Of a DNA stretch of 64,000 nucleotides, positions 3,966 through 18,459 are shown in pieces. This DNA comes from Alphaproteobacteria bacterium. GTDB taxonomy: Bacteria; Pseudomonadota; Alphaproteobacteria; Sphingomonadales; Kordiimonadaceae. The first letter of the stretch is position 1. The number at the start of each line of letters is the position of its first letter. A program made the translations under genes and the position numbers. The notes beneath the pieces were generated by a model, which saw only the letters and a list, made by a program, of their open reading frames with translations, was not told the origin of the DNA and ran no database searches. The stretch is taken from contig SBGU01000038.1 of NCBI GenBank assembly GCA_006226495.1, positions 1 to 64,000 of the forward strand, read 5' to 3'.

Positions 3966-4088
3966 TTTCGTTCCTCCCTTTCAGGCAAACGCCCGAAGTT
4001 TGCAAATGAGCGACCGGCGCCTGCGCCTTTGCCGCCTCTCACACTTTCCGGGACGCCTTAACCGATACGCCGGCGTCCTCTTCCGTCA

Positions 4089-5729
4089 TCAGGATGGGTC
4101 CCGCCATCCTGTATCCCTGAGGGCCGACAGCATCGGCCCCAGATGTTGCTCAAACTTCCTCCACTTCCCAATGGATCTGGTGTGCGCCTTCTCTCGCACC
4201 TGGGCGGCACTGGCCGTGGTTACGGCCGTGTCCTGTGTGTGAAATTCCTCACAGGCCCGTTGCCACCCAAGACCCAGAAACTCGATAATTCTCCGTGCGT
4301 TAGCCGGTACATCTTCAACCACATCCTCATAATTTACCTCAAGGATACGGTCGCCCAGCATCTGTTTCCAGCGCTTGGTCAGCCGGGCATAACGCCCGTG
4401 GTGCCGCGCCATTTCCGCCTGATCGTAGGAATGGAAATAGGCATCGGCGAAAAGCTGCTTGTAGCTTGCGAAACAGGCATCCGCCGGGTCGCGCACCACA
4501 TGGATGATGCGGGCGTTCGGCAGCGCCGCGGCGATCAGCGGCAGATACAGGTAATTGACCGGCATCTTGTCGACAAACCGCGGCAGGTCACCGCGCATGG
4601 TGCGGCTGGTCTCAAGATACAGGCGGCCCAGGCGCTCCATATCAAGGCCCACAGCCGCTTCCGCCATTTCGGCGGTAATCAGGCCCAGGCTTGAAAGCCC
4701 GGTCATGCGTTTGATCGACTGGCCGAACTGCTGCAGTTCGCCTGCCGAATGCACATCGCTGTGCGCGGTAATGATGCGCTCAATAAGGGTCGTGCCCGTG
4801 CGCGGCTGGCCGACAATAAAAATGGGCGAAGGGTCGTCATGCCCCGTCGCCCGTTTCTGCCACCAGTCTTCGTCATAAACACGTTCGAGCGTGTCAAACA
4901 GCGCCTGTTCAGCCGCTTCGTCATAGGCCACGGCCTTGCGGCGGGCTTTGGCGCCTTTGTCATAAGCCACGAAGGCTTTGTCAAACTGTTTCAGGTCTTC
5001 CAGTTCCTTGCCGATGGCATACTGGAAGAAAGGCATATCACCATGGGCTTCCGGCAGTTTTGCCGCCAGCACCTGCATGGTTTTCACATGGCTGTCGTCA
5101 ACCGCGCCGCCAAGGCGCGACAGCATCCAGTGCGCCTGCCCGCTGTCGGGTTTGGCTGCCAGCACAGCATTCAGGGCTGTGCGGGCCTCGTCGAACCGCC
5201 CCAGGAAGGTCAGGCACTTGGCCCGGCCAAGCTGAAAATAGGCCGACCCCGATTTCTGGAACGCCTTGTCATACCACTGTAGCGCGGTTTTCTGGTCGCC
5301 CAGCAGGCTGTGCACGGTGCCCAGCACGTCCTGCACCAGCGGGTCGGCGGGTGCCAGCGCTTCAGCCTTGGCAAGCGCCGTATCCGCATTGCCATACTGG
5401 CCGGTGGTCACGAAGGCGCGCGCCAGTTGTGCCCAGCCGGCGGCATGGGCGGGGTCGATGCTGACCACATTCTTGAACGCGGTGCGCGCCGTGGACCAGT
5501 CGCCACTTTCAACACCGATCAGGCCCACAAGGAAATGGGCTTCCTTGGCCTTCGGGAAATGGCGCAGGACCAGATTGCAGCAGCCGCCGGCCTCACGGAA
5601 ATCACCCCGGTTCATGGCGCGGAAACCACGGCCCAGAAGCTGGGCTGCATCCGCCCCTGTCATGGGTCGTTGCTGTGTGCCGCCCTGGCCCGTTATGCTG
5701 CCGCTCATTGCCATGCTAGCCCAACGCAT
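4089..5729 (-). CDS. TPR-repeat sulfotransferase
   Basis: A 546-residue fusion. Residues about 30-290 are a run of tetratricopeptide-like helical pairs (for example AGWAQLARAFVTTGQYGNAD and AYFQLGRAKCLTFLGRFDEA). The C-terminal half is a PAPS-dependent sulfotransferase. Its 5'-phosphosulfate loop IVGQPRTGTTLIERI is near residue 303 and its 3'-phosphate motif HVVRDPADACFASY is near 410. Such TPR-sulfotransferases are frequent in alphaproteobacteria; the acceptor is unknown. The start overlaps the upstream oxidase gene by 14 nt, without a clear Shine-Dalgarno sequence. Starts at 5714, 5708 or 5663 are also possible, so the N-terminus is uncertain. The overlap suggests co-transcription with the polyamine oxidase gene, but a metabolic link is only speculation. 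Confidence 0.85.
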   Translation of the reverse strand: MRWASMAMSGSITGQGGTQQRPMTGADAAQLLGRGFRAMNRGDFREAGGCCNLVLRHFPKAKEAHFLVGLIGVESGDWSTARTAFKNVVSIDPAHAAGWAQLARAFVTTGQYGNADTALAKAEALAPADPLVQDVLGTVHSLLGDQKTALQWYDKAFQKSGSAYFQLGRAKCLTFLGRFDEARTALNAVLAAKPDSGQAHWMLSRLGGAVDDSHVKTMQVLAAKLPEAHGDMPFFQYAIGKELEDLKQFDKAFVAYDKGAKARRKAVAYDEAAEQALFDTLERVYDEDWWQKRATGHDDPSPIFIVGQPRTGTTLIERIITAHSDVHSAGELQQFGQSIKRMTGLSSLGLITAEMAEAAVGLDMERLGRLYLETSRTMRGDLPRFVDKMPVNYLYLPLIAAALPNARIIHVVRDPADACFASYKQLFADAYFHSYDQAEMARHHGRYARLTKRWKQMLGDRILEVNYEDVVEDVPANARRIIEFLGLGWQRACEEFHTQDTAVTTASAAQVREKAHTRSIGKWRKFEQHLGPMLSALRDTGWRDPS

Positions 5730-7029
5730 CCTTCAACCGGTAATAGGCCATACCAACCGCCAGCACCGGCTGCCGGAAAGTGCGGCCACCCGGGAACGGC
5801 GGATGCTTGACCCCTGCCATGATATCGAAACGCCGGCTGTCGCCACCGATTGCCTCGGCAATCAGGCGGGCGGACATATGGCTGGGCGCCACACCATGGC
5901 CTGAATAAGCCTGTGCATAATACACCCGGGGCGCGATCCGGCCAACCTGCGGGATACGGTTCAGGCCAATGCCCATATAACCGCCCCAGGCATGGCTGAT
6001 GGCCACATCCTGCAGTTCCGGGAAGACCTTCAGCATGTTCGGGCGCACGGCAGCGATGATATCGCGCGGGTGGCGGCCCGAATAGGTGGCCAGCCCACCG
6101 AACAGCAGGCGCCGGTCTTCGGACATCCGGAAATAATCCAGTGCCCAGCGCTGGTCGCACACCGCATAGCGCGCGGGCATGATCCGGTCGGCCAGTTCTT
6201 CATCCAGCGGTTCGGTCGCGATGATATAGCTGCCTGCAGGCAACACACGCGACGCCAGCTTGGGCACCAGTTCCCCAAGATAGGCATTGCCCGCCAGAAC
6301 CACATGTTTCGCGGTCACCCGGCAATAATCCATATCGACGACCGTATGGTCGTCGCCGACCTGCAGGTTGCTGACCCGGGCGTCTTCATAAATACGGGCA
6401 CCAAGCCTTTCGGCGGCACGGGCTTCGCCGCGCACAAGGTCCAGCACATGGGCATGGCCCCAGCCCATGTTCACGACACCGCCCATATAGCGGTCAGACC
6501 CAACAATGGATTTCACCTCGTCGGGACCCACCACCCGCTGTTCGTGCGGATAGCCGTGCGCGCGCATGGTGTCTGCCTTGGCGACCAGTTCATCCAGTTC
6601 GGACTGTTTCATGGCCGCATCGAAATAGCCCCATTTCAGGCCACAATCGATGTCATATTTCCTGATCCAGTCGGCGATGATGTCGACACATTCGACCCCC
6701 ATCCTGAACACTTCATCAGCATTTTCAGCACCGAAGGATTTTTCGATCTTGCCAAAATCGGCCATCGCCTGGCCGTACCCGCCGATGATCTGGCCGCCAT
6801 TGCGGCCCGACGCACCCCAGCCGATGCGGTTCTGTTCCACAAGGGCGACTTCAACACCCTGCTCCGCCAGATGCAGCGCGGTGGCGACGCCGGTGAAGCC
6901 GCCGCCCACGACACAGACATCGACCTTGATATTGCCCTCAAGACGGCGGAAATCCTGCGTGTCCTTGCAGGTCGCCGCATAATAGCTTTCGGGCATACGG
7001 TCAGTATGGATGGAATCGCGGATACGCAT
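5716..7029 (-). CDS. PuuB-like FAD-dependent amine oxidase, second copy
   Basis: A 437-residue flavoprotein of the DAO family. The dinucleotide-binding motif VDVCVVGGGFTGVATALHLAE is near residues 36-56, and the second FAD contact IGWGASGRNGGQIIGGYG follows near 68-85. The C-terminal AQAYSGHGVAPSHMSARLIAEAI block is near residues 370-395. The overall arrangement matches gamma-glutamylputrescine oxidase. A homologous gene lies at 8890-10179 on the other side of the control region, so this locus carries two PuuB-type enzymes. They have clearly diverged, suggesting different amine substrates (inference). It follows the GabD-type gene after an 88-nt gap holding a strong hairpin. The start at 7029 has a weak Shine-Dalgarno; the ATG at 6996 is an alternative that better matches the family N-terminus (SYYAAT). 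Confidence 0.88.
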   Translation of the reverse strand: MRIRDSIHTDRMPESYYAATCKDTQDFRRLEGNIKVDVCVVGGGFTGVATALHLAEQGVEVALVEQNRIGWGASGRNGGQIIGGYGQAMADFGKIEKSFGAENADEVFRMGVECVDIIADWIRKYDIDCGLKWGYFDAAMKQSELDELVAKADTMRAHGYPHEQRVVGPDEVKSIVGSDRYMGGVVNMGWGHAHVLDLVRGEARAAERLGARIYEDARVSNLQVGDDHTVVDMDYCRVTAKHVVLAGNAYLGELVPKLASRVLPAGSYIIATEPLDEELADRIMPARYAVCDQRWALDYFRMSEDRRLLFGGLATYSGRHPRDIIAAVRPNMLKVFPELQDVAISHAWGGYMGIGLNRIPQVGRIAPRVYYAQAYSGHGVAPSHMSARLIAEAIGGDSRRFDIMAGVKHPPFPGGRTFRQPVLAVGMAYYRLKDALG

Positions 7030-7117: not shown

Positions 7118-8572
7118 TTAAAGGCCTGCCATCAGCAGGTATTTGATCTCGACATAATCCTCGATCCCGTATTTCGAGCCCTCGCGGCCAAGGCCGGACT
7201 GCTTGACACCGCCAAAGGGCGCCACTTCGGTCGAGAGGATGCCGGTATTAATGCCGACCATGCCATATTCCAGCGCCTCGGCCACACGCCACACGCGCGC
7301 CAGATTCTGGGCATAAAAATAGGACGCCAGGCCGAATTCGGTGTCGTTGGCCTGGGCCACAACATCGGCTTCGTCCTCAAATTTGAAGATGGGCGCCAGC
7401 GGGCCGAAGGTTTCCTCGCGCGCGACCTTCATGTCGCGGGTCACACCGCTCAGGATCGTCGGCTCGAAGAAACTGCCGCCCAGGCTGTGGCGTTTGCCGC
7501 CAGCCACCAGTTTGGCGCCTTTCGACAGGGCGTCGGCAACATGGTCTTCAACCTTTTCAATCGCTTCGGCATTGATCAGCGGGCCCTGGACCACACCGTC
7601 TTCGGCGCCGTTGCCCACTTTCATGGCTGCGACCTTGGCAGCCAGCTTTTCAACGAACGTGTCATAGACGCCGGCCTGAACATAAAGCCGGTTGGCACAG
7701 ACGCAGGTCTGGCCCGAGTTGCGATATTTGGATGCCATCGCACCTTCCACCGCTGCATCGATATCGGCATCGTCAAACACGATGAAGGGGGCATTGCCGC
7801 CCAGTTCCAGCGACACCTTCTTGATATCGTCCGAACACTGGCGCATCAGAATGCGGCCAACTTCGGTCGAGCCGGTGAAGGTAAGCTTGCGCACAATCTG
7901 GTTGGCGCACAGCTCACCACCGATGGCGCGGGCGTTCTTGCCAACCACGACGTTCAGCACCCCTTTCGGCAGGCCCGCGCGTTCGCCCAGTTCCGCGAGC
8001 GCGAGCGCCGACAGCGGTGTTTCGGCCGCAGGCTTCACCACCACGGTGCAGCCAACTGCAAGTGCGGGACCGACCTTGCGGGTGATCATGGCATTCGGGA
8101 AGTTCCAGGGCGTGATCGCGGCCACCACACCGATGGGCTGCTTGACTACGATGATGCGTTTGTCCGACTGATGTTGCGGGATAACGTCGCCATAAACGCG
8201 CTTGCCCTCTTCCGCAAACCACTCGATGAAGCTGGCGCCATAAGCGATTTCGCCGCGCGCTTCCGCCAGCGGCTTGCCCATTTCGGCGGTCAGGATCTGG
8301 GCCAGGTCCTCCTGGTGCGCCATCATCAGGTCGAACCAGCGCTTCAGGATAACGCTGCGTTCCTTCGCGGTCTTGGCGCGCCACGGACCCAGCGCCGCAT
8401 TGGCGGCGTCGATGGCGGCACGGGTTTCGTCCGCACCCTGGTCGGGCAAGGATACAATGGTTTCGCCGGTTGCCGGGTTCTTGACCTCGAAGGTCCCGCC
8501 GCTGTTCGCGCCGGCCCAAACACCATCAATAAAGGCCCTGTCCTTCAGAAGGGCGCCGTCTGCCAATTTCAT
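7118..8572 (-). CDS. gabD: NAD(P)-dependent succinate-semialdehyde dehydrogenase, GabD type
   Basis: A 484-residue aldehyde dehydrogenase. The general-base region LELGGNAPF has its glutamate near residue 255, and the catalytic cysteine lies in SGQTCVCANR near 289. The substrate and cofactor segments TPWNFP and FTGSTEVGR are intact. Length, the MKLADGALLKDRAFIDG-like start and the double-Cys motif are those of GabD-type succinate-semialdehyde dehydrogenases, the last step from GABA to succinate. I use the ATG at 8572, which has GGGGA six bases upstream; a GTG at 8584 is in frame but lacks its own ribosome site. It opens the leftward arm of the polyamine locus, transcribed from the divergent control region. 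Glutarate-semialdehyde activity is an alternative. Confidence 0.88.
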   Translation of the reverse strand: MKLADGALLKDRAFIDGVWAGANSGGTFEVKNPATGETIVSLPDQGADETRAAIDAANAALGPWRAKTAKERSVILKRWFDLMMAHQEDLAQILTAEMGKPLAEARGEIAYGASFIEWFAEEGKRVYGDVIPQHQSDKRIIVVKQPIGVVAAITPWNFPNAMITRKVGPALAVGCTVVVKPAAETPLSALALAELGERAGLPKGVLNVVVGKNARAIGGELCANQIVRKLTFTGSTEVGRILMRQCSDDIKKVSLELGGNAPFIVFDDADIDAAVEGAMASKYRNSGQTCVCANRLYVQAGVYDTFVEKLAAKVAAMKVGNGAEDGVVQGPLINAEAIEKVEDHVADALSKGAKLVAGGKRHSLGGSFFEPTILSGVTRDMKVAREETFGPLAPIFKFEDEADVVAQANDTEFGLASYFYAQNLARVWRVAEALEYGMVGINTGILSTEVAPFGGVKQSGLGREGSKYGIEDYVEIKYLLMAGL

Positions 8573-8667
8573 TATTTTCCCCACATAACATCGGGCCGGC
8601 CGGGCGTGGCCGATCCACCACTCCCAACCTTAGGCAAAAATGCCAGGAACAACAGCCCGTAGCTGTG

Positions 8668-8701
8668 CAATAATGTGATCACAATAACCACAAGCTGTCA
8701 A
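8668..8701 (-). promoter_or_regulatory. Leftward promoter with embedded operator palindrome
   Basis: On the minus strand a consensus -35 TTGACA (8701-8696) is followed after 12 nt by the perfect 10-bp palindrome TGTGATCACA (8683-8674) and then TTATTG. The palindrome covers the place where a -10 element should be, as expected for repression by occlusion. The stretch TGTGATCACATTATTG matches the rightward copy in 15 of 16 bases. It lies about 100 bp upstream of the gabD-type start. Confidence 0.65.
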
Positions 8702-8801
8702 CCAAGTGAGCAGAAAAAAACTTACGCGAAGAAAAGTGACAAAATCCCGCAGAAAGGCTGTAATAGCCAGCCGCACGCCAGCGAATTCGCATAGCGCCCT
8801 C

Positions 8802-8835
8802 TTGACCTTGACGCAAAAATGTGATCACTTTATTG
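8802..8835 (+). promoter_or_regulatory. Rightward promoter with embedded operator palindrome
   Basis: TTGACC (8802-8807) is followed after exactly 12 nt by TGTGATCACT (8820-8829) and TTATTG, mirroring the leftward element in order, spacing and sequence. An overlapping TTGACG (8808-8813) is an alternative -35. The element lies 55-90 bp upstream of the puuB start. A -10 hexamer close to consensus is not evident on either side, so the exact start of transcription is open. Confidence 0.65.
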
Positions 8836-8889
8836 GGAAATATGTCCTGCTGACGCGGGATTCGCACGACAAAGTCACATGGTGTCATC

Positions 8890-10179
8890 TTGAAGCAACA
8901 GATTGAACATACCGGCTCCTATTATGCCGCAAGTGCCCATGCGGCGCCGGCGCGCCCTGCCCTTGAAGGCAACATCAGCACCGACGTGTGTGTGGTTGGC
9001 GCCGGCTTTACCGGCATGGTCACGGCACTGACCCTGGCCGAGCTTGGCTACAAGGTGGTGATTCTCGAAACCGCGAAGGTCGGTTGGGGTGCATCCGGCC
9101 GCAACGGCGGCCAAATCATCAACGGCTTCAGCCGCGAAATCGGCTATATCGAAAAGACCGCCGGCAAGGACGGTGCCCGTGCGCTGGCCGCCCTCGCGCT
9201 CGAAGGCGGCAATGTCATCCGCGAGCTTTCGGCCAGATACAATATCCAGTGCGACCTGAAGCATGGTTCCGTGCTGGCTGCTTTCACGCCCAAACAACTG
9301 AAGGGCATGGAAGACACCATGAATACCTGGAAAGCCAGGGGCCGCGACGGCATCGAAATGCTGGACCGCACAGCGATCCGCAATCATGTGGGCACCGATG
9401 CCTATGCCGGCGGCTGGATCGACCATCATGGCGGTCATATCCATCCGCTGAATCTGGTGCTGGGCCAAGCCGCTGCCGCGGAAAGCCTCGGCGCCACCAT
9501 TTATGAACAGACCCGCGTGACCCGCGTGGATTATGATGCGGCCCAGCCGGTGGTCTACACCGAAGGCGGTTCCGTGACGGCACGCTTTGTCGTGCTGGCG
9601 GGCAACGCCTATCTGGGCAAGACCGTGCCGGCGCTTTACCCGAAGGTCATGCCGGCCACGACGCAGATCATTGTGACAGAGCCGCTGGATGACGCGGTTG
9701 CCCGCACCCTGTTGCCTACCGACAAATGTGTCGAGGACGCCAACTATGTGCTGGATTATTACCGGCTGACCGCAGACAAGCGCCTGCTGTTCGGTGGTGG
9801 CCTTGCCTACGACGGCAAGGACGTCGAGGACGTGCAGAAAGCGCTGCGCCCCAAGATGGAACATCTGTTCCCGATCCTGAAGGGCGTGAAGGTCGATTTT
9901 GGCTGGCAGGGCAACATTGCGCTGACATGGTCGCGCCTGCCGCATGTCGGACGGCTTGGCAAAAGCACATATTTCGCTCATGGTTACAGTGGCCATGGTG
10001 TGACCAGCACCCACATGATGGGCCGGTTGCTTGCCCATGCGCTGCATGGTGACGCAGGCACCTTCGATATTTTTGCCGGCATGCCGGCAATGAGCTTCCC
10101 GGGGGGGCAGCTCCTGAGCGTACCGCTGAGCCAGCTTGGTTGCTGGTGGTATTCGATGCGGGACAAACTGGGCATCTGA
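8890..10179 (+). CDS. puuB: Gamma-glutamylputrescine oxidase
   Basis: A 429-residue FAD enzyme oxidising gamma-glutamylputrescine to gamma-glutamyl-gamma-aminobutyraldehyde, ammonia and peroxide. Signatures in order: SYYAASA near the N-terminus, FAD-binding DVCVVGAGFTGMVTALTLAE near residue 32, GASGRNGGQIINGFSREI near 70, GGHIHPLNLVLGQA near 179, VEDANYVLDYYRLTADKRLLFGGG near 280-300, and AHGYSGHGVTSTHMMGRLLA near 365. These closely follow enterobacterial PuuB, including the IHPLNL and LDYYRLTA blocks. The start appears to be TTG at 8890; no ATG fits and no strong Shine-Dalgarno is visible, so initiation may be weak. It is the first gene of the rightward operon. Confidence 0.93.
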   Translation: MKQQIEHTGSYYAASAHAAPARPALEGNISTDVCVVGAGFTGMVTALTLAELGYKVVILETAKVGWGASGRNGGQIINGFSREIGYIEKTAGKDGARALAALALEGGNVIRELSARYNIQCDLKHGSVLAAFTPKQLKGMEDTMNTWKARGRDGIEMLDRTAIRNHVGTDAYAGGWIDHHGGHIHPLNLVLGQAAAAESLGATIYEQTRVTRVDYDAAQPVVYTEGGSVTARFVVLAGNAYLGKTVPALYPKVMPATTQIIVTEPLDDAVARTLLPTDKCVEDANYVLDYYRLTADKRLLFGGGLAYDGKDVEDVQKALRPKMEHLFPILKGVKVDFGWQGNIALTWSRLPHVGRLGKSTYFAHGYSGHGVTSTHMMGRLLAHALHGDAGTFDIFAGMPAMSFPGGQLLSVPLSQLGCWWYSMRDKLGI

Positions 10180-10229
10180 TTTGGGGGGCGAAGGCCTTCT
10201 TTGGGGCTCTTCGCGAAGAAAGATATTTT

Positions 10230-11138
10230 ATGGTTGCGTCCAGCACATCGTTCGGGATGAAAAAGGAAACCCTGTTCCAGCTATTCAAATACAGCGTTTA
10301 CTTTCTCATCTTCATCAACTGCATCTATTTCTTCTGGGAAGACTATAACGCGGCCGGTTTCACCTTCCGCGACGGCCTGACCCTTGAAGTGATCGGCGAC
10401 GCTTTCGCAACCGCGATCGATTCTCTCGCGTGGCTCACGCTCCTGATCCTGTTCGAGCTCGAGACCTATGTCATCCCGGACCACAAGCTGAAGGGCAAGC
10501 TGAAGTGGAGCTTCAGCGCGCTGGCCGCCATCTGCTATGTGTTCCTCCTGGTCGCCTTCAGCGGTTATTTCGACCGCATGATGATGACCTACGGTTTCCA
10601 TGCCGTGGTGGGCGATGCCTGCAGCTATGTGGGCCAGGTGCTGTCCTATGCCACAGATATCGACGAATATGCCGAACTGACCCTCGCAAGCTGTTCCAGC
10701 ATCCCCGCGGGCCAGCTTTATGTGAACCCGGATGTCAGCATCATTACGAGTCACGAAGCGCTCATCAGCATGCACCGCCTCTCGATGACCGATGTGGTGA
10801 ACTCAGCCGCCTGGCTGCTGGTTGTCGTGGTGTTGCAGGTGGATGTATTCCTCCAGTTGAAGGGCGAACTGACGCAGCGGCTGTACAAGATCAACGTGGT
10901 GATCAAGGGCATCACCTATATCACCCTGGCCGTCGCCTGCTTCTACTGGGCCTATCTGGGCGCGCTCATCGATTTCTGGGACGCGCTTCTGTGGCTGGTC
11001 GCCTTCATCTTCATCGAGCTGAACCTGTTCAAATGGCATGAACATGACCTCGAGATTGAAGAGGCAGAAGAAGAAGCCGCCCGCGCGCTGGTTGATGAAG
11101 CCGCGCGCGACGCCGAAACCGAGGAAGCAAAATCATGA
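10230..11138 (+). CDS. Unrecognised six-helix membrane protein inside the puu operon
   Basis: A 302-residue integral membrane protein I do not recognise. About six helices are seen: residues 17-37, 62-82, 95-114, 188-208, 221-243 and 249-268. A charged tail rich in Glu, Ala and Arg (270-302) follows. Three helices share one ungapped pattern, [DN]-[SA]-x-x-W-L-x5-[FLI]-[EQ]-[LV]-[EDN], at residues 64-78, 191-205 and 251-265. Each places acidic or amide residues within the membrane. The loop between helices 3 and 4 contains Cys131 and Cys155. The gene lies between puuB and puuD and overlaps puuD by 4 nt (ATGA), so it is translated with the pathway. A role in polyamine sensing, transport or membrane adaptation is a guess. 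The start could instead be at 10257. Confidence 0.75.
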   Translation: MVASSTSFGMKKETLFQLFKYSVYFLIFINCIYFFWEDYNAAGFTFRDGLTLEVIGDAFATAIDSLAWLTLLILFELETYVIPDHKLKGKLKWSFSALAAICYVFLLVAFSGYFDRMMMTYGFHAVVGDACSYVGQVLSYATDIDEYAELTLASCSSIPAGQLYVNPDVSIITSHEALISMHRLSMTDVVNSAAWLLVVVVLQVDVFLQLKGELTQRLYKINVVIKGITYITLAVACFYWAYLGALIDFWDALLWLVAFIFIELNLFKWHEHDLEIEEAEEEAARALVDEAARDAETEEAKS

Positions 11139-11887
11139 AGCCAGTCGTAGCCATCATATGCGACACAACAAAGGTCGGCCCGCACCTGGTGCACCAGGCC
11201 GGGGACAAATATATCCAGGCCCTGCGCCGTGTCGCCGACGTGACACCGATCCTGATCCCTGCACTGGATGAACCGCTGCCACCCGCGGAAATCCTGGCGC
11301 TGGTGGACGGCATTCTGGTCACAGGTGGCTACAGCAACGTGCAGCGCCACCATTATGGCGAAACACCGGCCCCCGCGACCGAACATGAAGACCCGCAGCG
11401 CGACAAGAACACCCTGCCCCTGATCCCCGCGATCCTGGCAGCCGGTGTGCCGATGCTGGGCATCTGCCGCGGCCTGCAGGAACTGAATGTGGCCATGGGC
11501 GGCACCCTGTATCCACGCCTGCATGAAATCGACGGCAAATTCGACCACCGGGAACACAAGGACGATCCGGTTGACGTGCAATATGGCCCGGCCCATGCGG
11601 TAACCGTGCGCGAAGGCGGACTTCTGGAAGCCATCACCGGCGACCAGGAATTCATGGTCAACACCGTGCATGGCCAGGGTATTCGCGACCTGGCTGCAGG
11701 CCTTGAAATCGAGGCCGTGGCCGACGACGATACCATCGAGGCGGTGTCCGTGAAGGACGCCAGGGCTTTTGCGCTGGCGGTGCAGTGGCACCCGGAATGG
11801 AAAGCCTGGGAAAACCCGCAATCGACCAAGATTTTCAAAGCGTTCGGCGATGCCGTCCGCGAAAACCAAAGGGCGAAACGCCCCTAA
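11135..11887 (+). CDS. puuD: Gamma-glutamyl-gamma-aminobutyrate hydrolase
   Basis: A 250-residue class I glutamine-amidotransferase-like hydrolase (peptidase C26) that releases GABA and glutamate from gamma-glutamyl-GABA. The nucleophile is Cys111 in LGICRGLQELN. The His-Glu of the triad lies in VQWHPEW near residue 217. An early ILVTGGYSNVQ loop (near 60) and MVNTVHGQGI (near 174) are the usual C26 landmarks. Its ATG overlaps the stop of the upstream membrane-protein gene. PuuA follows after about 45 nt. The order puuB-X-puuD-puuA differs from the E. coli arrangement. Confidence 0.93.
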   Translation: MKPVVAIICDTTKVGPHLVHQAGDKYIQALRRVADVTPILIPALDEPLPPAEILALVDGILVTGGYSNVQRHHYGETPAPATEHEDPQRDKNTLPLIPAILAAGVPMLGICRGLQELNVAMGGTLYPRLHEIDGKFDHREHKDDPVDVQYGPAHAVTVREGGLLEAITGDQEFMVNTVHGQGIRDLAAGLEIEAVADDDTIEAVSVKDARAFALAVQWHPEWKAWENPQSTKIFKAFGDAVRENQRAKRP

Positions 11888-11932: not shown

Positions 11933-13294
11933 ATGTATGATGCAAAGCGCATCGAAGAGCTGGATAACTGGCTGAAGGCAAAAAACATCGATGATATCGA
12001 ATGCATGGTCGCAGACCTTGCCGGTATCGCGCGAGGCAAATCGATGCCGCGCGTGAAATTCATCGAAGGCCTCAAGACCCGGGGTCTCAGGATGCCGGAG
12101 ACGGTGTTCGGCATGACCATTCATGGGGACTATGCCATCAACGAATATCTGCAGGAAATCGACCGCGACGTCATCCTGATGCCGGACCTGGACACGGTTT
12201 GCACCACGCCCTGGCAGCCGGAACCAACCGCAGCAGTGATTTGCGACTCGGTTCTCGAATCGGGCGAACCGGTTCAGTTCGCGCCGCGCCAGATCCTGAA
12301 ACGTGTGCTCGACCTGTATGAAGCCGAAGGCTGGCAGCCGATTGTGGCGCCGGAGTTCGAATTCTACCTGATCGAACGCCAGGACAATGTGGAATCGAAC
12401 CCGATTTCGCCGATCGGTGCCTCCGGGCGCCGTGACGTTGGCTCGGCGCCTTATTCGATCGACAGCCTCGACGAATTTGCGCCCTATTTCGACGAAGTGT
12501 ACGATAGCTGCGAAGCCCAGAACATCAACGTCGATACGCTGATTCACGAAGCCGGCCCGGCCCAGTTCGAATTCAACGTGATCCACGGCCCGGCCATGAG
12601 CGTGGCCGACCAGTCGTTCCTGTTCAAGCGCATCATTCGCCAGGTGGCGATCCGGCACAATATGTTCGCGACCTTCCTTGCGAGCCCCTATCCGGAACAG
12701 TATGGCAGCGCCATGCATATCCACCAGTCGGTCTGCGACCTGAAGACCGGCGACAATATCTTCGCCACCGAAGACGGTGAAAACTCGGAACTGTTCCTGT
12801 CGCACATCGCCGGCCTGCAGAAATACCTGCATTTCGCCATGCCGATGATCGCGCCCTATCCGAACAGCTACCGCCGTTTCTCCACCGGCTTCTCGTCGCC
12901 CACCAACACCCATTGGGGCCGCGAAAACCGCTCCGTCGGTCTGCGGGTCCCGGGTGGCCCCAAAGGTGCCCGCCGCATCGAGAACCGTGTTGCCGGTTCG
13001 GACGTGAACCCCTATTTCGCCATCGCCACGTCGCTGGCGTGCGGGTACCTGGGCATGAAGGAAGGCCTGAAGGCATCGCCCGAATTCAAGGGCAACGCCT
13101 ATGAAGCCAACAGCCGTGCGCTGCCCAGCCACTTCCTGGACGGCGTGAACAAGATGCGCCGCTGCGAGCCGCTCATTGAAGTTCTGGGTGAAGGTTTCGT
13201 GCAGACCTACCTCGAGGTGAAGGAAAAGGAATATGAAAGCTATTCCGCCGTCCTGAACCCGTGGGAAAAACGCTACCTGATGCTGTCGGTCTAG
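11933..13294 (+). CDS. puuA: Gamma-glutamylputrescine synthetase (glutamine-synthetase family)
   Basis: A 453-residue ATP-dependent ligase joining glutamate to the amine of putrescine, the first step of the pathway. The glutamine-synthetase fold is shown by the metal-binding EFEFYLIE near residue 139, GPAQFEFNV near 206, SAMHIHQSV near 259, and the ATP/glutamate loop with RVPGGPKGARRIENRVAGSDVNPY near 337-361. Length, absence of the adenylylation loop, and the neighbours puuB, puuC and puuD point to a PuuA-type enzyme rather than nitrogen-assimilating GlnA. The start at 11933 has only a weak ribosome site. A 9-bp hairpin follows the stop codon. Confidence 0.9.
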   Translation: MYDAKRIEELDNWLKAKNIDDIECMVADLAGIARGKSMPRVKFIEGLKTRGLRMPETVFGMTIHGDYAINEYLQEIDRDVILMPDLDTVCTTPWQPEPTAAVICDSVLESGEPVQFAPRQILKRVLDLYEAEGWQPIVAPEFEFYLIERQDNVESNPISPIGASGRRDVGSAPYSIDSLDEFAPYFDEVYDSCEAQNINVDTLIHEAGPAQFEFNVIHGPAMSVADQSFLFKRIIRQVAIRHNMFATFLASPYPEQYGSAMHIHQSVCDLKTGDNIFATEDGENSELFLSHIAGLQKYLHFAMPMIAPYPNSYRRFSTGFSSPTNTHWGRENRSVGLRVPGGPKGARRIENRVAGSDVNPYFAIATSLACGYLGMKEGLKASPEFKGNAYEANSRALPSHFLDGVNKMRRCEPLIEVLGEGFVQTYLEVKEKEYESYSAVLNPWEKRYLMLSV

Positions 13295-13315
13295 AGACCG
13301 TCACACCAAGTCTTT

Positions 13316-13339
13316 GGCCCGGCGACGCCCCGCCGGGCC
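13316..13339 (+). other. Intercistronic hairpin between puuA and the aminotransferase gene
   Basis: A perfect 9-bp stem GGCCCGGCG / CGCCGGGCC with a 6-nt loop lies 22 bases after the puuA stop. No U-run follows. It is more likely to protect or process the message between cistrons than to end transcription. Confidence 0.5.
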
Positions 13340-13370
13340 CATGATCCTGTCACTTGAAAGGAAAGCCCCC

Positions 13371-14741
13371 ATGCTGTCCAATCGCACCCTGTCCTGGCAG
13401 GCCCAGGATGCCGCGCATCACCTGCATCCCTTCACCACGCACCCGGCGCTCAGAGGCCGGGGGGCGCGCATGATCACTGGCGCCAAAGGCGTGTACCTGA
13501 CCGATTCCGAAGGCAACAAGATCCTGGACGCCATGTCCGGCCTCTGGTGCGCGCAGGTCGGGTATGGCCACGAGGAACTGGTTGAAGCCGCAGCCGACGC
13601 CATGCGCACGCTGAGCTACTACAATCTGTTTTTCATGACCTCGCACCCCTATGCCACCGAAATGGCGGCCAAGGTTGCGGAAAAGACACCGGAAGGCATC
13701 TCGCAGGTCCTGTTCGCCTGTTCGGGCTCGGAAGCGGTCGACAGCGCCTACAAACTGATCAAATATTACTGGAACCTGAAGGGCCAGCCTGGGCGCAAGC
13801 AGTTCATCGCGCGCGAACGGGCCTATCATGGCTCCACCGTCGTTGGTGCGTCGCTGTCGGGCCTCACGGGCATGCATCCGCAGTTCGACCTGCCGCTTGA
13901 AGGCATCCACCATGTCGGCCCCACGCCGCACCATTACAAGTTCGGCGGCGATATGGACGAAGAAGCCTTCACCGACCTTTGTGTAAAGGCGGTCGAGGAC
14001 AAGATCCTCGAGCTCGGTCCCGAAAATGTTGCCGCCTTCGTTGGTGAACCGGTCATGGGTGCCGGTGGCATGATGCCGCCGCCCAAGGGTTACTGGCCGA
14101 AAATCGAGGCGGTGTGCCGCAAATATGGTGTGCTTTTGTGGGCCGATGAGGTCATCACCGGCTGGGGCCGCACCGGCGAATGGTTCGGCAGCCAATATTA
14201 TGGCATCACCCCCGATGTGATAACCATGGCCAAGGGCATGTCGTCAGGTTATGTGCCGCTGTCCGCCGTGGCGCTTGGCCATGATATCGCCGACGCCATC
14301 GCGAACGGCGACGAGGAAATGGCCCATGGTTTCACCTATTCCGGCCATCCGGTCGCCTGCGCCGTGGCGCTGAAGAATGTGGAAATCATGGAACGCGACG
14401 GCCTTGTGGGCGAACGCGCCATGCCGCGCCACCGCTATTTCCAGGAACGGCTGGCGAGCCTTGCCGACCATCCGCTGGTTGGCCAGGTCCGGTCCGTCGG
14501 CATGTTGGGCGGCCTTGAACTGGTGGCCGACAAAGAAACGAAGACCTTCTTCGACCCCGATATGGATGTCGGCTTCAAATGCCGTGAACATTGTTTCAAT
14601 ACCGGCCTGATCATGCGCGCGGTTGGCGACAGCATGATCCTGTGCCCGCCGCTTGTGATTACGAACGCGGAAATCGACGAACTGGTGGACAAGGCGCGCG
14701 GCGCGCTTGACCTGACCGCCAAACAGATCGGCCGCATGTAA
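13371..14741 (+). CDS. Class III aminotransferase, putrescine/GABA:pyruvate type
   Basis: A 456-residue PLP enzyme of the omega-aminotransferase class. The cofactor phosphate motif SGSEAVDSAYKLIKYYW is near residue 121, the aspartate contacting the pyridine nitrogen is in LLWADEVITGWGRTG near 259, and the Schiff-base lysine is in MAKGMSSGYVP near 287. The N-terminal LHPFTTHPAL stretch and length resemble SpuC-like putrescine:pyruvate and GABA:pyruvate transaminases. In this operon it could convert GABA to succinic semialdehyde (the PuuE role), feeding the GabD-type enzyme, or transaminate putrescine directly. Substrate is not resolved by sequence. The start at 13371 has AAGGAAAG upstream. It ends 10 nt before puuC. 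Confidence 0.85.
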   Translation: MLSNRTLSWQAQDAAHHLHPFTTHPALRGRGARMITGAKGVYLTDSEGNKILDAMSGLWCAQVGYGHEELVEAAADAMRTLSYYNLFFMTSHPYATEMAAKVAEKTPEGISQVLFACSGSEAVDSAYKLIKYYWNLKGQPGRKQFIARERAYHGSTVVGASLSGLTGMHPQFDLPLEGIHHVGPTPHHYKFGGDMDEEAFTDLCVKAVEDKILELGPENVAAFVGEPVMGAGGMMPPPKGYWPKIEAVCRKYGVLLWADEVITGWGRTGEWFGSQYYGITPDVITMAKGMSSGYVPLSAVALGHDIADAIANGDEEMAHGFTYSGHPVACAVALKNVEIMERDGLVGERAMPRHRYFQERLASLADHPLVGQVRSVGMLGGLELVADKETKTFFDPDMDVGFKCREHCFNTGLIMRAVGDSMILCPPLVITNAEIDELVDKARGALDLTAKQIGRM

Positions 14742-14751
14742 GGAGGACGCC

Positions 14752-16248
14752 ATGACCGGGAAAAATCTCGCCTACTGGCAGGACCAGCAGAAACGCGCCG
14801 GCGTGCGCACCAAAGCCTTCATTGGTGGCCAGTGGCAGGATGCCGCCTCTGGCGCCACGTTCGAGACCATCAACCCCGCCACCGGGCAACTGATCGCCAA
14901 CATCGCATCCTGCGATGCGGCGGATGTCGACCGCGCAGTCGCGGCTGCGCGCAAGGCGTTCCGGGATGGCCGCTGGGCCGACCTGCACCCGTCGAAGCGC
15001 GGCGAGATCATGGTCAACTGGAGCCGGCTGGTGGCCGCACATGCCGACGAACTGGCCGTACTTGAGGTCACCGACATGGGCAAACCCATTTCGGATGCGC
15101 TGGCGGTGGATATCCCTGCCGTCGTGCGGGCGCTGCGCTGGTACGGCGAAGCCTGCGACAAGCTGATGGACGAAATCGCCCCCACGGACCCGAAGGCGCT
15201 GGCGCTGGTAACACGCGAGCCGATTGGCGTGGTCGCCGCCGTCGTGCCCTGGAACTTCCCGCTTCTGATGGCGGCCTGGAAACTGGGCCCTGCCCTTGCC
15301 GCCGGCAACTCGATTGTGCTGAAGCCCGCTGAACAGTCGCCGCTGACGGCCCTTCGCCTGGCCGAACTGGCGGTGGAGGCCGGCATTCCGGAAGGTGTGT
15401 TCAACGTGGTGCCGGGTCTTGGCCACACCGCCGGCAAGGCCCTGGGCCTGCATATGGATGTGGACGGGCTTGCCTTCACCGGTTCGACCCAGGTTGGCAA
15501 ATATTTCATGGAATATTCCGGCCAGTCGAACCTGAAGCGCATCGCGCTGGAATGTGGCGGCAAAAGCCCGCACATCATCATGGATGATTGCCCGGACCTT
15601 GATGCCGCAGCACAAGCCGCCGCCGGCGCCATCTTCTTCAACCAGGGCGAGGTCTGCACCGCAGGGTCGCGCCTTCTGGTCGACCGCAAGATCAAGGATG
15701 CCTTCTTCGAGAAGCTTCTGGCCGCAGCCGCCAACTGGGTACCGGGCGATCCGCTGGACCCCAAAACCAACCTGGGCGCCATTGTCGACAAGGAACAATA
15801 TGCCCGCGTGCTGGGCTATATCGACCGCGCCAAAGCCGACGGGGCGACCCTTGCGGCAGGTGGTTCGGCCACCCGCATGGAAACCGGGGGTTATTTCATC
15901 AAACCGACAATCTATGACGGTGTAACCCCCGACATGACCATCGCACGGGAAGAGATTTTCGGCCCCGTTCTCGCGGTGCTGGAATTCGACGGCGAAGACC
16001 AAGCCATTGAAATTGCAAACAATACCATCTATGGCCTCGCCGGCGCTGTCTGGAGCCAGAATATCAGCCGCGCGCACCGGATGGCGCGCGCCATTCAGGC
16101 CGGTACGGTGTGGGTGAATTGCTGGGACCCGACAGGCGACATGAGCATCCCGTTCGGGGGTTATAAACAATCCGGTTTCGGGCGCGATAAATCGTTGCAC
16201 GCGATCGAAAAATACACAAATCTGAAGACAACCTGGGTGCAGCTGTAG
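14752..16248 (+). CDS. puuC: Gamma-glutamyl-gamma-aminobutyraldehyde dehydrogenase
   Basis: A 498-residue NAD(P)-dependent aldehyde dehydrogenase. It carries VPWNFPLLMAAWKLGPALAA near residue 165, FTGSTQVGKYFM near 242, the general base in LECGGKSPHI near 265, the catalytic cysteine in FNQGEVCTAGSR near 302, and a C-terminal PFGGYKQSGFGRD. This pattern is that of the PuuC/AldH subfamily, oxidising the aldehyde made by PuuB to gamma-glutamyl-GABA, the PuuD substrate. A very good ribosome site (AGGAGGACGCC) precedes the ATG. The operon therefore contains a full PuuABCD set in scrambled order. Confidence 0.92.
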   Translation: MTGKNLAYWQDQQKRAGVRTKAFIGGQWQDAASGATFETINPATGQLIANIASCDAADVDRAVAAARKAFRDGRWADLHPSKRGEIMVNWSRLVAAHADELAVLEVTDMGKPISDALAVDIPAVVRALRWYGEACDKLMDEIAPTDPKALALVTREPIGVVAAVVPWNFPLLMAAWKLGPALAAGNSIVLKPAEQSPLTALRLAELAVEAGIPEGVFNVVPGLGHTAGKALGLHMDVDGLAFTGSTQVGKYFMEYSGQSNLKRIALECGGKSPHIIMDDCPDLDAAAQAAAGAIFFNQGEVCTAGSRLLVDRKIKDAFFEKLLAAAANWVPGDPLDPKTNLGAIVDKEQYARVLGYIDRAKADGATLAAGGSATRMETGGYFIKPTIYDGVTPDMTIAREEIFGPVLAVLEFDGEDQAIEIANNTIYGLAGAVWSQNISRAHRMARAIQAGTVWVNCWDPTGDMSIPFGGYKQSGFGRDKSLHAIEKYTNLKTTWVQL

Positions 16249-16283: not shown

Positions 16284-17687
16284 ATGGACGCAACCACGGT
16301 CGCCGATGCCGCGACAAACTTTGGCTTTTGGTCATTGGTACCGACCCTGTCGGTGCTGGTTCTTGCCGTCACCATCCACCGGCCCATCGAGGCCCTGTTG
16401 TTCGGTGCCGTGATCGGGCAGATCATCCTGGCCGTCGCGGGCGACATGACCGTGACGGACACGATTTTCGCCTATGCGGGTTCAACCCTGAACGCGCTTC
16501 GGGATGAAGACCTGGCCTGGGTAATCCTGGTGTGCGGCGCCATGGGGGCGCTTATTGGCCTTCTGGTGCGAACAGGGTCGGTAACCGTGTTCATGGATGT
16601 GGTGGCCAGGCGGGTCAAAAGCCGCGCAGGCGCGATTATGGCAACCTGGCTGATGGGCATCGCCGTGTTTGTCGACGACTATCTGAACGCCATTGCCGTG
16701 GGCTCGACCATGAAGCGCCTGACCGACCGTTACAAGGTCTCGCGCGAGATGCTGGCCTACCTGATCGATTCGACCGCCGCCCCCGTGAGTGTGATCATCC
16801 CCATCTCCACCTGGGCGGTGTTTTTCGCGAAACTGCTGGAAAGCGTTAACCTGGCCGCTCCCGGCGAAGGGTTCGCAGCCTATGTCGGCGGCATCCCCTA
16901 CATGCTGTATGCCTGGCTCGCAATCGTGATCGTGCCGGTCGTCGCCCTTGGCAAACTGCCGCTCATCGGCCCGATGAAGGCGGCCGAAGCCCGGGCGCAG
17001 GCCGGCCAGTGTGTGCCGCCGCGTTCCGGCAAACTGGCCGTGGACAAACACCCGATCGACGAAAAGCCGGGTGGCAAGCGCAGCGTCTGGATGTTCATCC
17101 TGCCGATTGCCGGCCTTGTGTTCTTCACGGTGCAGTTCGATCTCGATTTCCTGCCGGCGGTCTATACCGCCCTGTCGCTGACCATCGTCGCGGCACTGGT
17201 GTTCCGCTTCCTCGACCATCATGACGCTTTCGATACCGTGCTCGACGGCTTCCGCACCATGATCGAGCCGCTGGCGATCATTTTCTCGGCCTATGTGCTC
17301 AAGGAAATCAACGGCCAGTTGGGGCTGACCGAATATGTGCTCGATCTGGCGCTGCCCTACATGAACGCACACACCCTGCCCTTCATCATCTTCGCCATCA
17401 TGGGCCTGATAGCGTTTGGCACGGGGTCGAGCTGGGGCATGTTCGTGATCGCGCTGCCGGTGATTGCCGAACTGGCAATCCAGACCAACGCCAACATCCC
17501 GCTGGTGATCGGCGCCACCCTGTCTGCCAGCACGTTTGGCAGCCATGCCTGCCTCTATGCCGACGCGACAGTGCTGACATCACATAGCTGCGGATGTACG
17601 TCGCTTCAGCATGCGTTGACACAGTTGCCTTATGCCGTGATAACCGCCATTCTGTCCCTGTTGGGATTCTGGCTGTTGGCGGCTTAG
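16284..17687 (+). CDS. NhaC-type sodium:proton or amine carrier
   Basis: A 467-residue polytopic membrane protein with roughly eleven helices. The VFVDDYLNAIAVGSTMKRLTD segment (near residue 130) with paired acidic residues and the DSTAAPVSVIIPISTWAVFF segment (near 168) are typical of the NhaC/YfgD-like antiporter family. A second region with GTGSSWGMFVIALPV (near 378) and GSHACLYADATVLTSHSCGC (near 415) repeats the pattern, as expected for an inverted-repeat carrier. In E. coli the puu locus uses the APC-type PuuP instead. Here this protein occupies the transporter slot, so it may import putrescine, or exchange ions during amine uptake (inference). Confidence 0.85.
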   Translation: MDATTVADAATNFGFWSLVPTLSVLVLAVTIHRPIEALLFGAVIGQIILAVAGDMTVTDTIFAYAGSTLNALRDEDLAWVILVCGAMGALIGLLVRTGSVTVFMDVVARRVKSRAGAIMATWLMGIAVFVDDYLNAIAVGSTMKRLTDRYKVSREMLAYLIDSTAAPVSVIIPISTWAVFFAKLLESVNLAAPGEGFAAYVGGIPYMLYAWLAIVIVPVVALGKLPLIGPMKAAEARAQAGQCVPPRSGKLAVDKHPIDEKPGGKRSVWMFILPIAGLVFFTVQFDLDFLPAVYTALSLTIVAALVFRFLDHHDAFDTVLDGFRTMIEPLAIIFSAYVLKEINGQLGLTEYVLDLALPYMNAHTLPFIIFAIMGLIAFGTGSSWGMFVIALPVIAELAIQTNANIPLVIGATLSASTFGSHACLYADATVLTSHSCGCTSLQHALTQLPYAVITAILSLLGFWLLAA

Positions 17688-17694
17688 GGAAAGC

Positions 17695-18459
17695 GTGGCG
17701 ACTTTGAAGGGTAAATCCGGTATCAACCTGGACAAACTTGTTCAGGAACAAGGCGAAACCGCGCAGGAATGGGTCTATCGGGCCCTCCGCTTCGCCGTCA
17801 TGTCCGGCCAGGTGCAACCCGGCCGGGCACTGACCATCCGTGGCATTGCCGATATGCTGGGCGTCAGCGCCATGCCGGTCCGGGAGGCGCTCAGGCGCCT
17901 TACCTCGGAAGGGGCGCTTGAGCTGAAGTCCAACCGCCGCATCATGGTACCGGACCTGAGCCCGGCACGGCTTGCGGAACTGCTCGAACTCCGCATCGTG
18001 CTTGAAGTCCATGCCGCCGAACGGGCGCTCCCTTATATCAACGATACCACCCTCTCTGAGCTGCACCGCCTGAATGACGAACAGAACAAGGCTTTCGAGG
18101 CCCTGGACGCCGAAGGCAGCATCCTGGGCAACCAGGCGTTCCACCGGGCGCTCTATACCGCGCACCCGCACCCGGTGTCCCTGCCGATGATCGAACGGGT
18201 CTGGCTGCAGCTTGGGCCCCTGCACCGGCTGGCACTTGCCAACCTTGAAAAACATTATGTCACCGACCGGCATGTCGAAATCATGCGCGCAATCGAAACC
18301 CGCAATCCGTTCGGGTTGAAGGCGGCCATCGAATCCGATATCCGGGACGGCGCGGGTTACATGACCCAGACCGAGCTTCTGGACCGCTACAGCCGCGCCG
18401 AAGCCGGCAACCTGGCCGTACCGGGCAAGGACTTCGTGCGCACGCTGTCGAAGCGCTGA
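17695..18459 (+). CDS. GntR-family transcriptional regulator, FadR/FCD subgroup
   Basis: A 254-residue regulator. The winged-helix domain (about residues 22-88) contains LTIRGIADMLGVSAMPVREALRRLTSEGALEL, the typical GntR recognition helix. The FCD effector domain (about 92-225) contains FHRALYTAH and a histidine in RHVEIMRAI, probable metal-binding positions. The start is a GTG 8 nt after the carrier gene, preceded by GGGAAAG. It is the last gene of the operon. The two TGTGATCAC palindromes in the divergent control region are its most likely targets, with a polyamine or GABA-like ligand (inference). E. coli uses a Cro-type PuuR for this role, so regulation has been replaced. Confidence 0.88.
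   Translation: MATLKGKSGINLDKLVQEQGETAQEWVYRALRFAVMSGQVQPGRALTIRGIADMLGVSAMPVREALRRLTSEGALELKSNRRIMVPDLSPARLAELLELRIVLEVHAAERALPYINDTTLSELHRLNDEQNKAFEALDAEGSILGNQAFHRALYTAHPHPVSLPMIERVWLQLGPLHRLALANLEKHYVTDRHVEIMRAIETRNPFGLKAAIESDIRDGAGYMTQTELLDRYSRAEAGNLAVPGKDFVRTLSKR

Follow-up and report, generated by a model that had tools for sequence, protein, structure and literature searches.

A palindrome overlapping two divergent promoters is a predicted operator of a GntR/FCD polyamine regulon

Introduction

Marine bacteria use polyamines as a source of nitrogen. In the 64-kb window studied here (the whole stretch of DNA analysed), genes for polyamine use are arranged in two divergent arms, and two similar palindromes, each preceded by a TTGAC box, lie between the first genes of these arms. 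This raises the question of whether the palindromes are operators and, if so, of which protein. The last gene of one of the arms codes for a GntR/FCD regulator, the simplest candidate.

Results

Genes of the divergent cluster

The minus arm begins with gabD; it also has an FAD oxidoreductase gene and those of a TPR-sulfotransferase and a TonB receptor. At the head of the plus arm is a puuB-like oxidoreductase gene, followed by that of an unknown protein, by puuD-, puuA-, aminotransferase- and puuC-like genes, and by the genes for an Na+/H+-antiporter-family transporter and the GntR/FCD regulator (Table 1). The puu names stand for best matches below the NCBIfam cut-offs or for the position in the cluster; gabD was above the cut-off. 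Inspection showed that an ATG at 8572 is a possible alternative start for gabD, and that the puuB-like gene at 8890 has a TTG start, as it does in loci L046, L047, L048 and L102. The protein encoded at 10173-11138 had no match in Pfam and NCBIfam searches. It was 38-66% identical in 14 relatives, in puu operons with and without the GntR gene alike; its model was helical and confident (pLDDT 85.5), and showed no fold match in the PDB at E ≤ 0.001. The TPR-sulfotransferase and TonB-dependent receptor genes accompanied the gabD arm in eight of 12 GntR-type loci and in eight of 12 loci without the ortholog. This pair is a possible outer-membrane uptake partner of the polyamine pathway.

Table 1. 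Features of the divergent polyamine cluster and of its control region (positions in the window)
Feature	Position	Strand	Basis
TPR-sulfotransferase and TonB-dependent receptor	1647-5729	-	downstream on gabD arm
puuB-like FAD-dependent oxidoreductase	5716..7029	-	below NCBIfam cut-offs; present in relatives
gabD, succinate-semialdehyde dehydrogenase, first minus-arm gene	7118..8584	-	NCBIfam NF008415, above cut-off
Likely -10 hexamer CACATT, gabD arm, 18-base spacer, overlaps operator	8672..8677	-	assigned by conserved spacing and the T at position +11
Predicted operator TGTGATCACA, perfect palindrome, gabD arm	8674..8683	.	sequence and conservation
-35 element TTGACA, gabD-arm promoter	8696..8701	-	sequence; conserved TTGAC spacing in relatives
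-35 element TTGACC, puu-arm promoter	8802..8807	+	sequence; conserved spacing
Predicted operator TGTGATCACT, puu arm	8820..8829	.	sequence and conservation
Likely -10 hexamer CACTTT, puu arm, overlaps operator	8826..8831	+	inferred from fixed spacing
puuB-like FAD oxidoreductase, first plus-arm gene	8890..10179	+	below NCBIfam cut-offs; relatives
Unknown helical protein of operon	10173..11138	+	open frame from 10140; no Pfam/NCBIfam match
puuD-like gamma-glutamyl-GABA hydrolase	11135..11887	+	best match NF008471, below cut-off
Glutamine-synthetase-like, possibly gamma-glutamylputrescine synthetase (puuA-like)	11933..13294	+	below GlnA and GGputSyn cut-offs
Class III aminotransferase	13314..14741	+	Pfam/NCBIfam profile matches
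puuC-like aldehyde dehydrogenase	14752..16248	+	best match NF007352, below cut-off
Na+/H+ antiporter-family (NhaC/ArcD-like) transporter	16284..17687	+	profile matches
GntR/FCD regulator, proposed repressor, last puu-operon gene	17695..18459	+	Pfam GntR and FCD; operator co-occurrence

The GntR/FCD protein

The regulator, of 254 aa, has an N-terminal GntR winged helix (PF00392, 58.5 bits, residues 25-85) and a C-terminal, all-helical FCD domain (PF07729, 59.7 bits). All four of its Pfam matches were of GntR/FCD or winged-helix type; neither HTH_3 nor cupin was among them, which sets it apart from PuuR and PauR (XRE-cupin), nor was an aminotransferase domain, which sets it apart from MocR/GabR. 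Its model (mean pLDDT 78) matched FCD structures (McbR, TM 0.74/0.88). The nearest PDB structure, both by sequence and by model, was E. coli McbR/YncC (4p9f), with VanR-type and other GntR/FCD structures next. In most FCD members the metal ligands of the pocket are an Asp and three His. Alignment showed residues N146, H150, H193 and D215, whose columns we take to be the FCD metal-site positions, to be kept in most of 53 homologs; with the columns so assigned, this set differs from the usual ligands. Recognition-helix residues were also considered as a mark of site-bearing homologs and rejected, Met60 being common in both groups.

Since gntR is the last gene of the puu operon, it is probably autoregulated. 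In four of the five f8 clusters, a site is directly followed by gntR. In loci L053, L055, L056 and L057 a second GntR homolog (38-41% identical to the window protein) shares the cluster with the ortholog, and both have the same palindrome nearby; they may be paralogs sharing an operator.

Two palindrome-promoter modules

Read base by base, the module on the minus strand (8701-8668) is TTGACA-N12-TGTGATCACA-TTATTG, and that on the plus strand (8802-8835) is TTGACC-N12-TGTGATCACT-TTATTG. The final 16 bases of the two modules are identical at 15 positions, while their N12 spacers agree at only one of 12. An earlier note, made from the sequence of the window, had described two operator-promoter modules with the same order and spacing, 15/16 alike, and this reading was confirmed; of the extent that it gave, 8667-8835, the end is right and the start is one base off, at 8668. 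When the bases of 8585-8889 were shuffled singly 20,000 times, no divergent TTGAC pair with a 15/16 match at that spacing arose, in a test framed after the pattern had been seen.

The exact 10-mer TGTGATCACA, whose half-sites abut with zero bases between them, occurs once in the window, and three copies with one mismatch are found at 8820, 20455 and 20746. Four matches were thus observed against 1.5 expected, and five of 100 shuffles reached four, so that the bare count was rejected as a signal. With the count in the window near chance, the signal rests on pairing and spacing, and conservation had to decide. The observation in the earlier note that there is no other perfect promoter-associated copy holds for the window but not for the genome, which has five further exact copies.

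The sequence TTATTG was rejected as a -10 box: it lies 22 bases after TTGACN, which is too far, and it is not conserved in relatives. The fitting -10 is likely CACATT in one arm and CACTTT in the other; with a spacer of 18 bases, it lies partly within the palindrome and partly just beyond it. No sigma-70 promoter was found when 8400-9000 was scanned for the consensus, and the -10 is therefore weak. The palindrome had been proposed to cover the -10; it does overlap the likely -10 given by the fixed spacing, but TTATTG, six of the 16 shared bases, showed no conservation among the 28 arms compared below.

Conservation in clusters with the GntR ortholog

GntR orthologs (≥60% identity) were detected in 13 of the 246 genomes of the order, the genome of the window included. 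The gene was present in nine loci of named genomes, among them those of Kordiimonas marina (86%), K. gwangyangensis (83%), Pseudokordiimonas caeni (73%) and K. sediminis (65%); others of the nine were from MAGs labelled Kordiimonadaceae, Emcibacteraceae or Alphaproteobacteria. These relatives identify the source of the window as a Kordiimonas-like alphaproteobacterium. The control regions of 14 GntR-type puu clusters were compared: the 13 in which the GntR gene was seen plus that of genome G093, whose contig stops within the antiporter gene or directly behind it, at the place expected for gntR, and which was scored as GntR-type in this comparison and as GntR-negative in the table for the order. 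A lack of conservation of the palindromes in relatives retaining the operon had been named beforehand as evidence against the proposal; the pair (≤1 mismatch) was present in the divergent region of all 14, although several relatives are closely related and the counts are not independent. At least one copy was exact in 13 clusters, and two were in five. When the 1,024 palindromic 10-mers were compared, TGTGATCACA was paired in 14/14 regions, and the next best in 1/14.

TTGAC was kept in 27 of the 28 arms, at -18 relative to the palindrome in 23 and at -17 in four, and was absent from one. A column comparison of the 14 clusters showed a T at +11 in 27 arms. Beyond TTGAC, the palindrome with its A/T flanks and this T, the intergenic sequence was nearly unconserved. 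A 9-base core was identical in 28/28 arms, partly due to the selection rule of ≥9/10 bases. The conserved block is a predicted -35 box followed, at 17-18 bases, by a weak -10 (CACAWT or CACTTT), formed by the palindrome's right half together with the bases that follow. The distance from site to site was 145-147 in seven clusters, 156 in one, 120 in one and 106-109 in five. The term 'puu arm' is loose in L053-L057, where the gene behind an arm may be gntR or that of the FAD oxidoreductase.

Clusters without the GntR ortholog

Of the 29 genomes of the family, 22 had a PuuD relative, and nine of these 22 have a GntR-type cluster. Of the 13 remaining puu loci without the ortholog (12 plus L096), the comparison used the eight whose divergent region was similarly built and could be read; L188 and L193, where the contig ends in the cluster, and L194, L195 and L197, which have a different arrangement, were left aside. 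No GntR gene was seen in the stretches of these eight clusters; two of the genomes (G046 and G052) have a homolog of 35-38% identity elsewhere and count as GntR-bearing in the tables for the order and for spdH. The palindrome pair was found in none of the eight (0/8), and a single copy in two. In six of them, TTGNA-N13 was retained ahead of the operon on the puu strand, followed by a palindrome that was perfect in one (G070) and degraded in five (for example TATGGTCACC, TGTGGTCATT and TGTGATGAGT). The single-locus shuffle rates were 0.036-0.083 for these five, and ranged from 0.001 to 0.083 over all six. The degraded palindromes are at most suggestive of relics of lost operators.

A search for PuuR in the 12 puu clusters without the ortholog gave no match. 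The better of two matches in the genome of the window was a PuuR-like XRE-cupin regulator 31% identical to E. coli PuuR, encoded beside an aminotransferase-like gene on another contig (L184 1474-2022; G000:C41:71558), and a PuuR ortholog was rejected as the local regulator.

The site and the GntR family across the order and class

Exact flanked sites (WWWTGTGATCACAWWW) were present in 29 of the 246 genomes of the order, the backward control pattern in only two, and members of the GntR family (E ≤ 1e-25) in 28. Both were found in 25 genomes, GntR only in three, the site only in four, and neither in 214 (Fisher p = 7e-27, uncorrected for kinship); at most the first ten candidates per genome were scored for GntR, which makes its absence softer. 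The GntR-only genomes were G076, which has one-mismatch sites, and G010 and G062, which have a distant homolog (34-37%) and no site. Those with the site only were G032, G055 and G101, with one exact flanked site each, and G093, where the contig ends. In G070, with one perfect palindrome in the puu region, GntR was not detected.

The search was extended to loci with distant homologs (33-41%) in the order, using the fetched stretch of about 1.5 kb either side of gntR. A site with ≥9/10 core bases was found in 15 of 17, two of the 17 being second copies in genomes that also bear the ortholog; in L029 and L038 no site matching the 10 core bases was found. In the class outside this order, 11 of 24 homolog loci had a site and 13 had none. 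Many homologs of only 33-51% identity have the palindrome close to their GntR gene, and at many distant-homolog loci the neighbours include genes resembling puuA, puuC or spdH or those of an aminotransferase or an FAD oxidoreductase.

Further sites

Eight places in the genome of the window match the flanked pattern at ≤1 mismatch, the two of the divergent region among them, and one matches the backward control. A site lies about 25 bases upstream of a spermidine dehydrogenase gene (PDB SpdH 7d9i, E 4e-149), with a weaker second copy 100 bases further upstream, likewise in G064. Others lie about 30 bases upstream of a second puuA-like glutamine synthetase gene (below cut-offs), upstream of an Amidohydro_3 gene (also in G049, G064 and G079), upstream of a GNAT acetyltransferase gene and inside an S9 peptidase gene; some sites are within coding DNA (C20:16112, C50:66001). 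An exact palindrome was also observed inside the second puuA-like gene (L004 3999-4014), 695 bases from its promoter copy. The palindrome stands at the start of the Amidohydro_3 enzyme gene (L002 3849-5618; L070, L073, L087) in four genomes, in three of which this gene adjoins that of a DgcA-like racemase.

A variant site, AAATTTGATCACAAAA, with the conserved flank was found about 410-430 bases upstream of an ornithine/arginine-decarboxylase-like gene (L006 3189-3204, L077 3465-3480). The two decarboxylase-like proteins, from the genome of the window and from G064 (both Kordiimonas genomes), are 82% alike. From this variant site, polyamine synthesis may belong to the regulon. In G079 a site lies upstream of an agmatinase gene (above the NCBIfam cut-off), and also of its 82% homolog in G093; in both genomes a dihydroxy-acid-dehydratase-like gene is divergent on the other side of the site. 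G064 has a site upstream of a potF-like gene (below cut-off). Other sites are beside genes without a clear polyamine link, such as the IspA/MFS genes in G049. The survey of the own genus gives at-least counts, the sites of five of its 19 genomes being covered in part or left aside.

For spdH, one locus was compared in each of 30 of the 38 matching genomes, the second spdH-like gene of the genome of the window (on C42) being left out. Of the 21 genomes that have the GntR family, 12 had a site within 400 bases upstream, against none of the nine without it (p = 0.004); the other nine of the 21 GntR-bearing genomes had no site at the spdH locus. The palindromes had been thought to control the divergent locus. 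The pair is indeed there, but the site is not confined to it and marks further polyamine genes; the copies at other places in the genome point to an entire polyamine regulon, with a protein of a type unlike that of E. coli.

Discussion

The reading that we favour, at a probability of roughly 0.85, is that the two palindromes are operators of the cluster-encoded GntR/FCD protein and belong to an autoregulated polyamine regulon. The pair is conserved where the ortholog is present and missing where it is absent, the site and the GntR family co-occur across the order, and sites precede polyamine genes. A single repressor acting on both arms, most simply the GntR/FCD protein, had been put forward from the sequence of the window, and genome comparison (14/14 against 0/8, plus the co-occurrence) speaks for such a repressor. 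We infer that GntR binds the sites, that it represses rather than activates, and what its ligand might be.

Bound at each palindrome, a dimer of the GntR/FCD protein would lie over the -10 region of a TTGAC promoter and over part of its spacer, which would close that promoter to RNA polymerase. The gabD arm and the puuB...gntR arm would be shut together, and the repressor would limit its own synthesis. Binding of a polyamine or of a gamma-glutamyl/GABA intermediate to the FCD domain would make the dimer leave. Both arms would then be expressed, as would the unlinked genes with a site (spermidine dehydrogenase, the second puuA-like gene) and, in some relatives, agmatinase and the potF-like gene. 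Judging from the genes controlled, putrescine, spermidine, or an intermediate of gamma-glutamyl or GABA type, are natural candidates for the ligand.

FCD regulators can also activate, and GntR might bind these sites mainly as an activator, or as a looping repressor that needs both sites. The presence of two sites 106-156 bp apart in 14/14 clusters, 145-147 in seven of them, would suit this, but the overlap with the -10 fits a steric block, and single sites lie upstream of the agmatinase and amidohydrolase genes. The spacings (120, 156, 106-109) vary without one helical phase, and fixed-phase looping was rejected on these grounds. Activation or looping appears unlikely. It is also quite unlikely that the palindromes are operators of another factor (CRP/FNR-type, Lrp-type or a PuuR-like XRE-cupin protein) with the neighbouring GntR a bystander. 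The half-sites TGTGA and TCACA do look like those of CRP, the 31% PuuR-like protein at C41:71558 has HTH_3 and Cupin_2 domains, and GntR went undetected in four genomes with an exact flanked site, in one of them (G093) since the contig ends. However, the CRP-type operator is TGTGA-N6-TCACA, with half-sites six bases apart, and was rejected on spacing, those of TGTGATCACA having none between them. Further, the presence of the site follows the GntR family over the 246 genomes, in an analysis covering this family as the sole factor; the site is found close to homologous gntR genes outside this family and this order, and the pair is absent from relatives that keep the cluster without the ortholog.

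The symmetry might, finally, be incidental and the palindrome simply part of a conserved promoter with an unusual -10. Since the TTGAC spacing (17-18 bases upstream) and the nearly invariant T at +11 are fixed, part of the block is probably promoter. Yet the 9-base core shared by the 28 arms is far longer than a -10 needs, and six clusters without the ortholog keep TTGNA-N13 with the palindrome degraded in five; a promoter without an operator is thus very improbable.

The operator reading would make this a new regulon under a regulator of a known kind, well supported by comparison. A wider proposal is held more tentatively, at slightly under even odds: that in Kordiimonadales-type and some other Alphaproteobacteria the main regulator of polyamine genes is an undescribed GntR/FCD repressor family whose operator is TGTGATCACA. 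This family would coordinate uptake with catabolism (puu, spdH, agmatinase, potF), and perhaps also with synthesis (the ornithine-decarboxylase-like gene with its variant site), with the operator fused to the -10, paralogs sharing the operator, and operators decaying to relics in the same promoter after loss. The case offers a testable operator, regulator and regulon that group unlinked enzymes, including an amidohydrolase, and the clusters with and without the regulator form a natural experiment.

Comparison with known systems

No GntR/FCD polyamine regulator appeared among the matches listed from the open-access literature; of twelve papers there that contain the literal site, judged by title, one is bacterial and has it in a primer. 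PuuR of E. coli and PauR of Pseudomonas aeruginosa are XRE-cupin repressors of gamma-glutamylation polyamine genes (PMC7901475). Like the proposed GntR, they are local repressors of such genes, and PauR shares with the window system a palindromic site, a regulon of several sites and a site before its own gene. They differ in being XRE-cupin proteins, whereas the window regulator is GntR/FCD; the suggestion that the regulatory solution here is unlike that of E. coli is borne out by the family to which PuuR belongs. GabR/GabR2 of Comamonadaceae (MocR subfamily), with predicted regulons that include puuA, puuD or speB (PMC5320631), share a GntR-type DNA-binding domain with the window regulator, but have a MocR aminotransferase-like domain instead of FCD and belong to another lineage. 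EpuRII (SCO5656) of Streptomyces coelicolor controls the gamma-glutamylpolyamine synthetase gene glnA3 (PMC9397018) and in this resembles the proposed GntR.

McbR/YncC is the best fold match to the window regulator, but at about 25% identity. Together with VanR, TM0439 and HypR it is a GntR/FCD repressor, as proposed for the window protein, acting in other pathways. The operator sequences of these four differ from that of the window; a catabolic repressor with a palindromic operator is the usual FCD pattern. If true, the system proposed here would be another solution for the same pathway beside the XRE-cupin and MocR regulators, and its regulator a candidate polyamine sensor.
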